The translations under genes were made by a program, and so were the position numbers. From positions 1 through 23,040 of the IMG/VR virus record IMGVR_UViG_3300047287_000460: DNA of 23,040 nucleotides; one strand, 5' to 3'. Below are positions 2,101-8,240 of the stretch, in pieces. The notes under the pieces were generated by a model. It saw only the letters and a list, made by a program, of their open reading frames with translations, did no database searches and was not told the DNA's origin. Position 1 is the first letter of the stretch. Each line of letters begins with the position of its first letter. Source of the DNA: a virus.

Positions 2101-2943
2101 ATGGAAAATCAAAATAACCCGCTGAAGTCATACTTCAGAAAACCAGGCATTTGGATCAAGTTGCCTAGCCAAGGCAACTATTCTGCCAGCAAGCCTGCTG
2201 ACCTAAACGACATGGGCGAAATTCCAGTTTACCCCATGACTGCTAAAGATGAGCTAATGCTTAAAAATGCTGATGCATTATTAAACGGAACAGCTATTAC
2301 CGGCTTGATTAAAAGCTGTGCTCCTAGTATCACTGATCCTGAAAACATGCCAGCTGTTGACTTAGACACTCTTTTAGTTGCAATTAAGCACTGTACTTAC
2401 GGTTCTAAGATGACTGTTGAAACCAAGCACGACTGCGCTGAAGCCGCTGCTCATGAAGTCAGCGTTGATTTAGATATGATGATTGCTAACATCAAAGTAT
2501 TGGATAAAATTGAACCAGTAGAACATGAATCAGGAATTAAGATTTTTATTAAACCAGTAACAGTTAAAGATGTACTAAGGCTTAACTGGGTTCAATACGA
2601 ACAGATCAGACAACTGCAAATGGCAGAAGCACAAAATGTTGATGAAAAAACAAAATTAGATTTATTACAAAAAAGCTATGAGTCATTGACCAACGAAAGC
2701 ATTAAAGTAATATCCAAGTGCATTGACAGTGTACTATTACCAGACGGAGTTGCTGTAACAGATACTGCTATGATTTCCGAATGGGTCAGCGACTTAAGCA
2801 GACCAGAATATACAAAACTAGAACAAAAAATTATGGACACTAACTCTAAAGGTGTTGAAAAACAATTTGATGTTCACTGCCCTGAATGTGGCTCTGCATA
2901 TAAAACTACATTAGACTTGAATCCAACAACTTTTTTCGGATGA
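2101..2943 (+). CDS. 26: gp26-like baseplate hub / T4_baseplate family protein
   Basis: This 280-residue protein matches the family I know as T4 baseplate protein gp26. It has an N-terminal YFRKPGIWIKLPSQG segment (residues 11-25), the stretch GEIPVYPMTAKDE (39-51), a conserved block around residues 85-104, and a C-terminal CPEC knuckle (260-263) followed by LNPTTFFG. The partner zinc knuckle seems reduced to an HDC at 110-112. The family acts in assembly of the tail or baseplate hub. A GGAG sequence sits just ahead of the ATG, and a late promoter lies 40 nt upstream. The stop codon overlaps the start of the next gene, and a slippery heptamer lies at the very end of the frame, so a longer fusion product is possible. 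Confidence 0.8.
   Translation: MENQNNPLKSYFRKPGIWIKLPSQGNYSASKPADLNDMGEIPVYPMTAKDELMLKNADALLNGTAITGLIKSCAPSITDPENMPAVDLDTLLVAIKHCTYGSKMTVETKHDCAEAAAHEVSVDLDMMIANIKVLDKIEPVEHESGIKIFIKPVTVKDVLRLNWVQYEQIRQLQMAEAQNVDEKTKLDLLQKSYESLTNESIKVISKCIDSVLLPDGVAVTDTAMISEWVSDLSRPEYTKLEQKIMDTNSKGVEKQFDVHCPECGSAYKTTLDLNPTTFFG
2931..2937 (+). promoter_or_regulatory. Candidate -1 ribosomal frameshift site T-TTT-TTC
   Basis: The heptamer TTTTTTC is in phase with the gp26-like frame (codons ACT TTT TTC GGA TGA), the canonical X-XXY-YYZ form. A -1 slip continues through CGG into the downstream gene without meeting a stop, giving a fusion of roughly 360 residues. The zero-frame stop is 3 nt beyond the heptamer. 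No stimulatory pseudoknot was identified. Confidence 0.4.
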
Positions 2944-3182
2944 GGCTTTTGGCTCTCAAGTCAGGGCCAGAAATTATGAAGTTGTTAAAACAGTTAGAGT
3001 CTGAGTCAAAAGCCATAACAGAAGATATTGTAACCCTAACAATATATTCGGGTCAAAGCTATGAACAAATGTGGAATACTAGCTATGACGAACGACAAAT
3101 ATTCGTGAAAATCCTTAAAGACAAAATAAACTTAGATCGAGGCATTAAGCCAAAAGAAGTTTTAACACAAGGTATGTTCTAA
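2940..3182 (+). CDS. Small protein coupled to the gp26-like gene (possible tail assembly chaperone extension)
   Basis: An 80-residue protein whose ATG overlaps the upstream stop codon as ATGA. It is predicted helical, with a stretch of the type IYSGQSYEQMW (about residues 36-46) followed by a charged YDERQIFVKILKDK segment (49-62). Short proteins with this look follow the gp26-like or tail chaperone gene in many tailed phages. It may be made by translational coupling, by -1 frameshifting as a C-terminal extension of the gp26-like protein, or both. T4 gp51 is a functional candidate, but I cannot show homology by eye. It is followed by AT-rich hairpins that probably end the transcript. Confidence 0.6.
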   Translation: MRLLALKSGPEIMKLLKQLESESKAITEDIVTLTIYSGQSYEQMWNTSYDERQIFVKILKDKINLDRGIKPKEVLTQGMF

Positions 3183-3188
3183 TCTTTT

Positions 3189-3234
3189 TATTTGTTCATA
3201 GAACAAATAGATTTAATTTTTACTAAAGTAAAAA
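3189..3234. terminator. Two AT-rich hairpins, probable bidirectional terminator
   Basis: TATTTGTTC (3189-3197) pairs with GAACAAATA (3201-3209) around a 3-nt loop. A second stem, TTTTTACT (3217-3224) with AGTAAAAA (3227-3234), follows at once. Both lie in a very AT-rich stretch just past the end of the 2940-3182 gene and have T-rich sequence on either strand. Low GC makes them weak as intrinsic terminators. Confidence 0.5.
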
Positions 3235-3300
3235 CAAAATCTTTTAATTCTTTTTTATTCTTTAAGAGATTTCTTTATACGAGATATTTGCCAAGGTTTT

Positions 3301-3656
3301 GCAGTCGTACTTAGCCCTGTTAAGGGCTAAGGTGAAATAATGAAATACCTGCCGGAGGCCCATTATCGTAATCTATCGCTGCAACTAATATAGTAAGGGC
3401 GGTTACGCTATACCCTTTTACGCAGTCCTTAGGCAACGCAGAAACTTATAGCTGATAGATGAACACTAAGTTTCTTGTGGGTTGTAATGACTCAACAGAG
3501 CCCACTCATTTTCGACTATACATACACTTGCCAGCGTCTTTCAAGTCTAACGCTTCGTCCCAACATCATTGGGGTAGTGGCAATCATGTCTCCGCTACTG
3601 CTCGGAAATTCCTACCGTCACACATCAGAACGGATTCGGGCACCTTATCGACTTGC
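3301..3656. ncRNA. Candidate structured RNA, family not recognised
   Basis: This is the main content of the gene-free stretch 3183-3684. By hand count 3301-3660 is about 46% GC against about 19% in the 120 bases before it. A long-range helix closes the block: GCAGTCG (3301-3307) with CGACT-T-GC (3649-3656, one bulge), stacked inside by TAAGGTG (3328-3334) with CACCTTA (3641-3647). Inside are hairpins 3314-3317/3324-3327, 3337-3342/3361-3366, 3389-3396/3403-3412, 3441-3448/3467-3474, 3477-3482/3500-3505, 3526-3530/3542-3546, 3559-3563/3569-3573 and 3574-3580/3592-3598. The 3526 hairpin could form an H-type pseudoknot (3533-3537 with 3550-3554). The closing region has an alternative pairing (3640-3644 with 3658-3662). 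Strand is undecided because helices read alike on both. It may be an independent RNA, or the 3' region of the GIY-YIG transcript. Confidence 0.45.
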
Positions 3657-3684
3657 CGGTGCGAGCTGTTATCAGTAGTTGTGC

Positions 3685-4113
3685 CTAGATTTTGTTTATA
3701 ATGTGGGAGCCGTGGACTCTGACTTGTATGTGACCGTTATAGTAATCTGCGGATTCTAAAACTTTGTGTGTGAATTGTTCTCTTGCCTCGATGTAACTAC
3801 ATTCTGCCTTAGATTTGCAATAGTATAGTATTTCTCGTTGAAAATTTTCTGCGCCTAGAGTTTGTATGTCTTTATTAAGTTCGTCGTTTGAGCCATAGTA
3901 TGTGCGCCAGTCAGAGTCGACTTTGTTGCGAATTTTCTTTTTCTTTTTTGTGCCGTTTTTGAGTTTAACTGTTTTGTAAGTTGTTTTTGAAAACTTTGCC
4001 AGTTTTTTGCCTATGTATTTGCGGCCTGTGACTGTATTGGTAATGAGATAAACAAAACCAATACAGTCCTCAGGAAGTAGTTCTACTTCGACACCTTGAT
4101 AAAACCATGACAT
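3685..4113 (-). CDS. GIY-YIG nuclease domain protein
   Basis: A 142-residue protein opening with a GIY-YIG core: G19-F-V-Y22 and Y33-I-G35. A basic lysine-rich stretch (about 48-63) follows, then WRTYYGS (69-75) and a SYIEAREQF segment whose E109 fits the conserved catalytic acidic residue. The family cleaves DNA; members include homing endonucleases and repair nucleases. The length and the YYGSNDELNKDI region resemble short free-standing proteins common in marine T4-like phages. It is the last gene of the minus-strand operon and ends at the edge of the candidate structured RNA. No second DNA-binding domain is visible, so homing activity is uncertain. Confidence 0.75.
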   Translation of the reverse strand: MSWFYQGVEVELLPEDCIGFVYLITNTVTGRKYIGKKLAKFSKTTYKTVKLKNGTKKKKKIRNKVDSDWRTYYGSNDELNKDIQTLGAENFQREILYYCKSKAECSYIEAREQFTHKVLESADYYNGHIQVRVHGSHIINKI

Positions 4114-4120
4114 AGCCAGC

Positions 4121-4327
4121 TTACTTAGCTGACAATGCCGCCTTTTCTTCGGTGATTTCTTTGCGTCGAGCTTTGACTAGCTTGGCAACTTCTTGCAGTG
4201 CCTTGCGAGCACGGCCAGCTGCCGCTTTAACTTTTTTAGTTGTGAATTTTTCGTTTTCTTCAATGTAAATTTGGAACTGTTTAACTAGTTCCTCTTGTGT
4301 ATTTACAACTGGTTGTGTGTCAGCCAT
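4121..4327 (-). CDS. Small basic helical protein, possibly histone H1/Hc1-like
   Basis: A 68-residue protein with an acidic N-terminal half and a lysine-, arginine- and alanine-rich C-terminal half (roughly residues 30-60, including AAGRARKALQEVAKLVKARR). Similar small proteins in marine phages are often annotated histone H1-like, from their Ala/Lys helices. It could bind DNA or act as a small coiled-coil partner; no motif settles this. The gene overlaps the end of the acyl carrier protein gene by 8 nt and lies 7 nt before the GIY-YIG gene, so it is part of one transcript. Confidence 0.6.
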   Translation of the reverse strand: MADTQPVVNTQEELVKQFQIYIEENEKFTTKKVKAAAGRARKALQEVAKLVKARRKEITEEKAALSAK

Positions 4328-4562
4328 TATGTCGTCCTTTTAAATATGTAACCAATGCGTTATAGTTTTTAACTTTATCAGTAGCGTCGTCTTCGACTTC
4401 GATGCCAAATTCTTCTTCTAGCTTTAATATTAGTTCAACGATGTCAAGACTGTCAAGTCCCAACTCAGACCAAATACTAGCAGCTTTTACTTCATCAGCA
4501 GTTAACTGATAATCCTTTTCCATCACGGAAAGAATCTTTGCTTCAAGATCATTGAAATCCAT
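4320..4562 (-). CDS. Acyl carrier protein
   Basis: An 80-residue, strongly acidic protein with the full acyl carrier fold signature. The GLDSLDIVEL motif (35-44) places Ser38 as the site for the 4'-phosphopantetheine arm, and helix III and the acidic EEEFGIEVEDD segment (49-59) follow. Acyl carrier proteins hold acyl chains as thioesters for fatty acid or lipid-modifying enzymes. The family normally works with host synthase enzymes and needs a phosphopantetheinyl transferase, which is not in this window. An AGGAGA ribosome binding site lies before the ATG. The gene sits between gp46 and the small basic protein, so it is likely expressed with recombination genes. It has every residue needed to be modified; its acyl substrate is unknown. 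Confidence 0.9.
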   Translation of the reverse strand: MDFNDLEAKILSVMEKDYQLTADEVKAASIWSELGLDSLDIVELILKLEEEFGIEVEDDATDKVKNYNALVTYLKGRHNG

Positions 4563-6389: not shown

Positions 6390-7380
6390 CAAGGACTTGA
6401 CAGTCGATAACTTCGCTTTCAATTGAATTAAGCTGTTGAACAACAATTTGGTCAACGCTTTCAAAGTGAACATCTCCGCTCCAATCTTGGCTATGTTCTT
6501 CTTTCTTAGCAGGTATTAAATTGATTTCTCTAAGTTTATATTCTTCTTGCCAAGACTCTTTTAAGAATGTTGCTTCTTCAAAACTAATATCAGCATCGCA
6601 GGTAACACGCAAGAATGTGTTAGCATCCATATACTTGTCTGGACTATCAATTAGTTTTGTTAAGTCTATGGTCTTAAACTTTGGAGCATTGGGCCAAGCA
6701 ATATATTCCGGTTCGCCGCCAAATTCTAAAATCATCATACCACGATCGTCATCCCAAGCATCAGCATAGTTATGAGGGAAAGCATTACCAGTATATGTAA
6801 CATTGCCACTGTGCTGTCTCATATGGAAATGCCCGCTGAACACACGCTCTTGATTGGGAAAGTGTCCGCGATTAAGTCCACCGTGATCGGGCATTTCAAC
6901 ATTGGCATTCATTTTAAAGTTAGGTAGTTCAAAATGTCCAAAGACATAACGACTATCTAGTTTTTTCATCTTAGTCCATTCGTCACCAACTAGCCAGGGC
7001 ACTAAACTAACTTGTCCTTCGGTATAAGTGTCGCTGACCAAAATAACATTGTCGAGATTCTTAATAAACGGTATACTAGTTAAGTCTCGTTTTTCTCTAT
7101 AGTATAAGTCGTGATTGCCAGGAATGAAAAAGAATCGTTCGAAGTTTTTAGCAATATGGTCTATGGCATCTACAGTATAGTTCAATGTGCTTACATTAAC
7201 AGTGGCGCGATGGTGATGCCAGTCGCCCATAAAGATAGCTGTATCGCAGTCACGCTGTCGTGCTGTTTCGCAAAACCACTTAACAAAGTTTGAACAATCT
7301 TCGTTGTGTGCCCGACTGTTTTGCCTCATACCAAAGTGTATGTCTGTGAAGACAGCAGCTCGCTTAAACATCTGTGACAT
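6361..7380 (-). CDS. 47: gp47 recombination endonuclease subunit (Mre11/SbcD-like nuclease)
   Basis: A 339-residue calcineurin-type phosphoesterase with the metal-binding motifs in order: DIHFG (13-17), GDWHH (52-56), GNHD (88-91) and GHFHMR (183-188). These residues coordinate the two Mn ions of Mre11 family nucleases. The length equals that of T4 gp47. It pairs with gp46, whose gene follows after 9 nt. The start codon overlaps the last base of the gp55 gene and is preceded by AGAGGA, so translation is coupled to gp55. Together the pair processes DNA ends for phage recombination. Confidence 0.95.
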   Translation of the reverse strand: MSQMFKRAAVFTDIHFGMRQNSRAHNEDCSNFVKWFCETARQRDCDTAIFMGDWHHHRATVNVSTLNYTVDAIDHIAKNFERFFFIPGNHDLYYREKRDLTSIPFIKNLDNVILVSDTYTEGQVSLVPWLVGDEWTKMKKLDSRYVFGHFELPNFKMNANVEMPDHGGLNRGHFPNQERVFSGHFHMRQHSGNVTYTGNAFPHNYADAWDDDRGMMILEFGGEPEYIAWPNAPKFKTIDLTKLIDSPDKYMDANTFLRVTCDADISFEEATFLKESWQEEYKLREINLIPAKKEEHSQDWSGDVHFESVDQIVVQQLNSIESEVIDCQVLVDIYNQLHI

Positions 7381-8240
7381 TAAAAATCCTCTGTTTTTAG
7401 ATTTGCTAAACGCTCGCGCTCGTCACGAATTGTTGCTTCGTGTTCAAACTGTCGTGTAAAGCTAGGGTTACTACCTGTTTCAATCAGCAAGTCGTCTCTA
7501 ATCATTTGATTTTTCTTTTCAATGTTCAAGATGCGAGTGAAGCTGTTGTCAATGGCAGCGGTATAATAAGCAAATGGGTTCTGTGATTTTGATTCATCAA
7601 ACTGTAAACCAATTTGACTTAACTGTAGCAAAGCTTGACTTCGCATTTCGTCTACATAAGTGTAGCCACGCCAGTTAAATCGCATACTGTATTTTTCAAC
7701 TAGTAGCATAAAACTTTTTGCTAGTTTATTGGTCATTGACCCTTCTAAGTTAAACTCGCCAGTTTCTATATCACCTTTCCAATGACTTTTCCCTACACAA
7801 ACTAATTTTTCTTCTCCGTCAACAAGTTCGAATTTAAAATGTTGATAAGGAGGAAAATTTACTTTGGTATGATGATCACCTCTGCTTTTAGGAGTTTTCT
7901 TACGACCTGGTTCTAAAGGAATATGATCGTGTGTCATTAGTCTAAACACTACATCTGTTTTGGCTACCTTTTTGTAGTCAATTTCAACTTCTGCTAGTTT
8001 AGTTTTTGGATTGGTTTTTTGGGCTTCGATTAATGCAAGTTGGCTAAGTCTAGCGGCTTGATTTCGCTTGGCTTCTGCTATTGTTCGAATGTTAATCTTA
8101 TTCAAATCCAAGACAATTAAGTCATAATTGCTGTATTCTGGCTTGGTATAAACGCTATAGTTGTTCTTGCTTAAATGTATTTCTTTGAGCAATTCTTTAT
8201 TCGTTAAGTATTGTTTTGCGGGTGGGTTCGTAGTTGTCAT
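7380..8240 (-). CDS. 55: gp55 late-transcription sigma factor
   Basis: A 286-residue protein that I recognise as the gp55 form seen in marine T4-like phages. The conserved core is RGYTYVDEMR (191-200), QALLQLSQIGLQFDESKS (202-219), NPFAYYTAAIDNSFTRI (221-237) and LNIEKKNQMIRDD (238-250). These correspond to sigma region 2-like sequence that recognises the late promoter -10 element. The N-terminal 160 residues are longer than T4 gp55 (185 residues in total); such an extension also occurs in cyanophage homologues as I recall them. Its presence agrees with the ATAAATA late promoters in this window. The gene has a sigma-70 promoter of its own whose start site coincides with the ATG, consistent with expression before late genes. 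Confidence 0.92.
   Translation of the reverse strand: MTTTNPPAKQYLTNKELLKEIHLSKNNYSVYTKPEYSNYDLIVLDLNKINIRTIAEAKRNQAARLSQLALIEAQKTNPKTKLAEVEIDYKKVAKTDVVFRLMTHDHIPLEPGRKKTPKSRGDHHTKVNFPPYQHFKFELVDGEEKLVCVGKSHWKGDIETGEFNLEGSMTNKLAKSFMLLVEKYSMRFNWRGYTYVDEMRSQALLQLSQIGLQFDESKSQNPFAYYTAAIDNSFTRILNIEKKNQMIRDDLLIETGSNPSFTRQFEHEATIRDERERLANLKTEDF

Follow-up and report, generated by a model that had tools for sequence, protein, structure and literature searches.

RF01718 (Polynucleobacter-1) was filed in 2010 by Weinberg et al. as 'probably RNA, probably cis-regulatory' (PMC2864571), and in the literature as far as searchable it is mentioned solely in that source paper, the main text of which holds no jumbo-phage or satellite-like contexts. 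GOLLD and ROOL are large, ornate, pseudoknotted phage RNAs without coding function, and GOLLD combines a conserved 3′ region with a variable 5′ region, many of its members being longer than 800 nt (PMC12286853). In the lytic phage ICP1 and its satellite PLE, the most abundant transcript of each is noncoding (PMC7567579), and PICMI, PLE, tycheposons and VEIMEs, as satellites of virulent phages, are small integrative elements with an integrase, replication genes and defence cargo (PMC10803314).

The RNA presented here was found in a 23,040-nt stretch of a viral record of IMG/VR (hereafter, the window). Its 5′ 144 nt are a gathering-level member of RF01718, with which it shares the habitat of fresh water and Burkholderiales (PMC2864571). 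It is likewise large, ornate, pseudoknotted and without coding function, as GOLLD and ROOL are, and its 3′-conserved pattern resembles that of GOLLD, as three loci (L241, L227 and L232) match a model of the 3′ domain and not RF01718. In contrast to GOLLD and ROOL, it is shorter (~400 nt), is not linked with tRNA islands in the phages and does not match the Rfam model of either in sequence and structure. The RNAs of ICP1 and PLE are reported to be distinct transcripts, whereas a single family is found here in phages and in bacterial islands. These islands, which are candidate satellites, are similar to PICMI, PLE and the related elements in size, integrase, replication genes and defence cargo, but they have a different set of components, namely DUF6641, two tyrosine recombinases, a gp44-like clamp loader and a T4-late-promoter-like site.

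Identity and extent of the RNA

The RNA lies in the longest gap of the window, 502 nt (3183-3684) bordered by convergent genes, with 99 nt for the second longest. The GC content is 46.1% in 3301-3656, 19.5% in 3183-3300 and 39.1% in the whole window. The unusual gap of about 500 bases, the contrast between a 46% GC block and its 19% flank and the lack of a real protein frame, all three pointed out in the first-pass annotation of the window, hold. The protein-coding reading is rejected because no open frame is kept across 43 homologues, in which the longest ATG frame has a median of 24 codons in the RNA sense and 35 in the antisense. Homologues were collected by exact-match searches of IMG/VR with DNA patterns taken from the conserved regions, which gave 16 stretches at first and 99 later; INPHARED contains no nucleotide relative of the RNA.

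In a cmscan search, positions 3667-3524 of the minus strand match RF01718 over the full model (1-141 of 141) with 49.5 bits against a gathering threshold of 37 (E 4.9e-8), and the RF01718 helices P1, P3, P4 and P6 are kept with covariation in the 43 relatives. The 5′ domain (3524..3667, minus strand, 144 nt; cmscan and alignment) is therefore a member of a known orphan family of unknown function. The Rfam search over 601 bases gave just RF01718 and one chance match (E 3), so that the earlier remark that the block could not be matched to any family fails for the 5′ third and stands for the remaining ~250 nt. Conservation and covariation continue through these ~250 nt, and the full conserved RNA of ~394 nt (3285..3678, minus strand; 43-sequence alignment and covariation count) is nearly three times as long as the 141-position model. 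Its borders, CUACUG near 3678 and the last conserved base near 3285, are limits of conservation and not mapped termini; the RNA does occupy the block 3301-3656 originally delimited, but runs slightly beyond it on both sides. The 3′ domain, which has no match in the Rfam search and for which a separate model was built, is located at 3286..3427 of the minus strand.

Of the molecular classes that had been considered for a block of this size, a tmRNA is rejected because neither ARAGORN nor Rfam finds one, with tRNA-like ends and a tag reading frame as the criterion. Known ribozymes and group I or II introns are likewise rejected, as no Rfam covariance model matches, and the models of GOLLD, ROOL and HEARO also have no match in the block. 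It could be argued that the RNA is nevertheless a ribozyme or a ligand-binding regulator, as in the original table entry for RF01718 (PMC2864571), because internal bases beyond the pairs are also highly conserved in the 43-sequence alignment. Apart from the missing ribozyme family match in Rfam, this reading is opposed by the lack of a consistent same-strand downstream gene, the next phage gene downstream being convergent, and is very improbable.

Covarying structure and the direct repeats

The folding energy of the single sequence is ordinary on both strands (z -0.64 and -0.79) and thus uninformative; folding energy alone would have missed the RNA, which is revealed by covariation. A 14-helix model with 65 named pairs is paired in 97.2% of the cells of 43 distinct phage sequences, a percentage biased by the derivation of the structure from these same sequences, and this bias does not explain the double changes found at 42 of the 65 pairs. 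The covariation score is 0.512, compared with 0.202 for shuffles (0 of 500 reach the observed score) and at most 0.105 for slid partners. The idea that a GC-richer block folds by chance, as a functionless artefact, would agree with the ordinary folding energy, but it is refuted by covariation far above both controls and by the RF01718 match, and its probability is practically nil. The existence and the structure of the RNA are near certain, and the candidate phage RNA of the first-pass annotation is strongly supported by the covariation. The RNA is assigned to the minus strand because its G-U pairs, including one pair of P10 that is U-G in 43 of 43 sequences and many further ones, would be A-C on the plus strand; a plus-strand RNA is rejected by these pairs and by the strand of the RF01718 match.

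Many local hairpins do exist, but the two long-range helices that were thought to close the structure are not kept: the seven pairs of the outer one (3301-3307/3649-3656) form in 2-38 of ~43 homologues, and the seven of the inner one (3328-3334/3641-3647) in 8-31. These helices are refuted, but pseudoknots are real, and three others than the one first proposed are supported by covariation, all on the minus strand. In pseudoknot 1, the 5′ end of the RNA (CUACUG, 3673..3678) pairs with the loop of hairpin P3 (CAGUAG, 3595..3600); it is 99.6% paired and occurs as CUACUG/CAGUAG, CUACCG/CGGUAG, CUAUCG/CGAUAG and CUACGG/CCGUAG. Pseudoknot 2, the top stem in an unbiased scan, joins the loop strand AUCUAUC (3454..3460) to GAUAGAU (3371..3377), with 96% pairing and double changes at 7 of 7 pairs, and in pseudoknot 3 the P6 loop (ACU, 3544..3546) pairs with a downstream strand (AGU, 3515..3517), with 95% pairing and double changes at 3 of 3 pairs. 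The 141-position RF01718 model leaves out, at least in part, the three pseudoknots, the 3′ domain and both repeats, R1 and R2; as far as searched, there is no earlier description of the 3′ extension, the pseudoknots, the co-varying repeats or the contexts in phages and islands.

The 3′ hairpin P12 (CUUAGCCC...GGGCUAAG, 3310..3331, minus strand, 98.2% paired) is flanked in all lineages examined by two direct-repeat modules of the minus strand, R1 (3350..3371, core CCUCCGGCA at 3350-3358) and R2 (3289..3310, core CCUUGGCA at 3289-3296). The core is the same within one RNA and different between lineages, being GGCA or GACA in clade A, GGUCAAG or GUGUCAAG in clade B, GGAUAAU, AGAUGAA or ACAUGAU in marine phages, and GCGAAAG or ACAAAAG in bacteria. 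In a free alignment, the two repeats of one RNA match at 7.47 of 9 positions and swapped pairs at 6.43 (permutation p 5e-5). On the tree of the flanking genes, the clade A states require 3-4 changes, in which R1 and R2 always change together. A four-column link in clade A connects a P7 pair, R1 and R2 (15/15 vs 15/15), the source of which may be recombination of whole RNA alleles.

Pairing in cis is rejected as the cause of this concerted change, as the pairing of GACUGAA with both repeats in clade B (by eye) has no equivalent in clade A and in marine lineages, and no cis partner valid for all lineages was found. Exact complements of R1 and R2 in two phage genomes occur only in the RNA itself, and one-mismatch complements in these genomes are few, at the chance level for 10-12-mers. 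The simplest reading would be two equal sites for one partner, for example a dimeric protein.

Since the repeats flank a hairpin in every lineage examined, they might instead mark a DNA-level site, such as a replication origin or a site of packaging or recombination, which phage and satellite carry for the same machinery and in which the RNA structure is secondary or belongs to an origin transcript; the gp44-like clamp loaders of some islands make a hijacking of replication plausible. However, the G-U pairs of one strand and the three covarying pseudoknots argue for single-stranded RNA, and a GC-skew turning point is absent at the locus in two large contigs, which is a weak test. A DNA-level site is therefore considered quite unlikely.

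The locus in phages

In ~100 contigs, the RNA follows a nuclease gene, and a small gene and a T4-type baseplate gene converge on it from the other side. In the window, the gene directly upstream encodes a SegE-type GIY-YIG endonuclease (3685..4113, minus strand; Pfam PF19835, 116.5 bits), and the small conserved gene on the other side (2940..3182, plus strand; context table) adjoins the baseplate gene (2101-2943; T4_baseplate PF12322). The RNA ends a minus-strand run of gp55, gp47, gp46 and nuclease genes, the first of which encodes a gp55-like late sigma factor (7380..8240, minus strand; phrog_12791, E 8e-79). The nuclease is of the GIY-YIG type in 84 and of the PDDEXK type in 12 of the ~100 contigs, and the RNA stays in place despite this swap. 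An acyl carrier protein gene (4320-4562) and a histone H1-like (Hc1) gene (4121-4327), both on the minus strand, are also present in the window near the recombination nuclease genes.

To avoid circularity, 80 baseplate loci were drawn independently, by the baseplate protein, and nhmmer located the RNA at its fixed place in 59 of them. Among the remaining 21, three loci end too soon to show it, several others carry diverged copies recognized by eye or by the 3′-domain model, and some continue into coding sequence, with no RNA seen. The 3′-domain model, although built only from freshwater phages, also matches marine phages and bacterial islands. In two marine T4-like contigs (L167:3329 and L168), a diverged relative of the RNA stands behind a strong sigma-70-like promoter (TTGACA-17-TATACT), and heat-shock, ClpS, ClpP and heme-oxygenase-like genes were noticed by eye.

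A gp55 homologue is present in 11 of the 12 RNA-bearing phage contigs tested and in the window, from which the host phages are predicted to use T4-like, gp55-dependent late transcription. TAAATA is enriched before the genes of two phages (44 vs 17 and 59 vs 19 on the reverse strand). The baseplate protein most resembles its counterparts in Agrobacterium phage Atu_ph07 and further Rak2-like jumbo phages; the phages bearing the RNA are T4-like jumbo relatives, and many large viruses of water bacteria carry it.

In clade A, the RNA starts at most ~10 nt from the stop codon of the nuclease gene, and no promoter was found directly upstream of it in the window, so that the RNA of phages may be a 3′ UTR only. 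Located between convergent genes, it would then be a cis-acting element that ends, protects or processes the long gp55-gp46/47-nuclease mRNA and has no role in trans. However, a 394-nt fold with three pseudoknots far exceeds the needs of a terminator, a search of the window gave no U-tract terminator, and the island RNA is divergent from the DUF6641 gene, without the gp55-nuclease operon upstream and with a promoter-like site of its own. A role confined to cis is rather unlikely on this evidence. Downstream of the RNA, in phages and in islands, a double inverted repeat recurs, often with GAGCGAnAGCGA in the first loop, which is possibly a shared type of terminator.

Burkholderiales islands and the proposed function

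In Burkholderiales, RF01718 exceeds the cut-off only rarely, in 2 of 401 and 4 of 399 genomes (with G001 in both counts), and the 3′-domain model matches six bacterial loci (L110, L115, L116, L139, L157 and L159; E 7e-7 to 0.014). Small, often tRNA-adjacent DUF6641 islands with T4-late-promoter-like sites were observed in Burkholderiales at L115, L116, L153-L163 and L166, and one Burkholderiales genome contains four DUF6641 copies. The gene set common to sixteen DUF6641 regions consists of a large tyrosine integrase (10), a small tyrosine recombinase (10), two unknown families (6 each) and a gp44-like clamp loader (4). Duplications delimit the islands of L159 (53 bp of tRNA-Phe, ~13.3 kb) and L161 (48 bp of tRNA-Pro, ~10.6 kb), and L154 has a 17-bp att duplication; for the other six of the nine loci tried, no duplication was found within the available stretch. 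With an integrase and an att duplication, such islands appear to be delimited integrative elements, as phage satellites are, and no capsid or tail family was found among the subset of island ORFs scanned.

TAAATA is present in 17 of 21 DUF6641 upstream regions, pointing away from DUF6641, where 3.7 are expected, and a hand count places it 46-53 nt before the RNA in each of the five RF01718 islands. The islands thus carry an TATAAATA-type element, a putative promoter for gp55-dependent late transcription. Such an element would be expected in a satellite that takes its timing from a T4-like helper. The islands are regarded as candidate satellites. DUF6641 was rejected as a partner common to phages and islands, as it is absent from 12 phage contigs in the same family search that does detect the bacterial copies. 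Its almost complete absence from IMG/VR, where one contig has it, gives no support for packaging of the islands.

Other cargo was also observed. A complete Zorya type I set (ZorA, B, C and D) is located beside the RNA-bearing island genes at L116:11562-19727, L155 has genes homologous to this set, and the 13.3-kb island of L159 contains an OprB-type porin gene (L159:11743-13191) between the RNA and the small recombinase. At L121, L123, L126 and L142, a different conserved RNA-like block (consensus GCGGGTTGnrATAnnnCGGCTAAyGAnCCCGC) occupies the same cargo position upstream of DUF6641, often after a small ORF; this alternative cargo was not found in viral contigs.

Sequence analysis defines a multi-pseudoknotted, noncoding minus-strand RNA of ~394 nt, composed of an RF01718 domain and an undescribed 3′ domain; from its sequence and contexts we infer its function. 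The best explanation as a whole, to which we give somewhat less than an even chance, is a trans-acting phage RNA shared with candidate satellites and serving as a two-site protein scaffold or decoy. This reading is favoured by the fixed phage locus in which the RNA is kept while the nuclease is swapped, by the island RNA that stands apart from the operon with its own promoter-like site, by gp55 in the phages, the enrichment of TAAATA and the concert of R1 and R2, and by the precedent of the noncoding ICP1 and PLE transcripts (PMC7567579). In phages, the RNA would be made as the tail of the gp55-gp47-gp46-nuclease transcript and then freed by processing, and would act in trans during infection. 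As a scaffold or decoy, it would probably hold a phage-encoded or host protein at R1 and R2, both close to the 3′ end, and the repeats would change in concert to follow a partner that differs between lineages. The copy that islands carry behind the T4-late-promoter-like TAAATA would be made only in infected cells. More tentatively, one RNA may be common to T4-like jumbo phages and their parasitic satellites, with the helper's late sigma factor switching on the satellite copy and R1 and R2 serving as recognition sites for one infection-specific partner that phage and satellite either share or compete for.

With its extent, strand, pseudoknots and contexts, RF01718 is turned from an orphan 141-nt motif into a testable large phage RNA, which joins GOLLD, ROOL and the ICP1 and PLE transcripts. 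If the DUF6641 islands are satellites with a T4-type late promoter, they would represent a new family of jumbo-phage satellites, and the RNA common to both elements would indicate a step of infection on which phage and satellite both depend.
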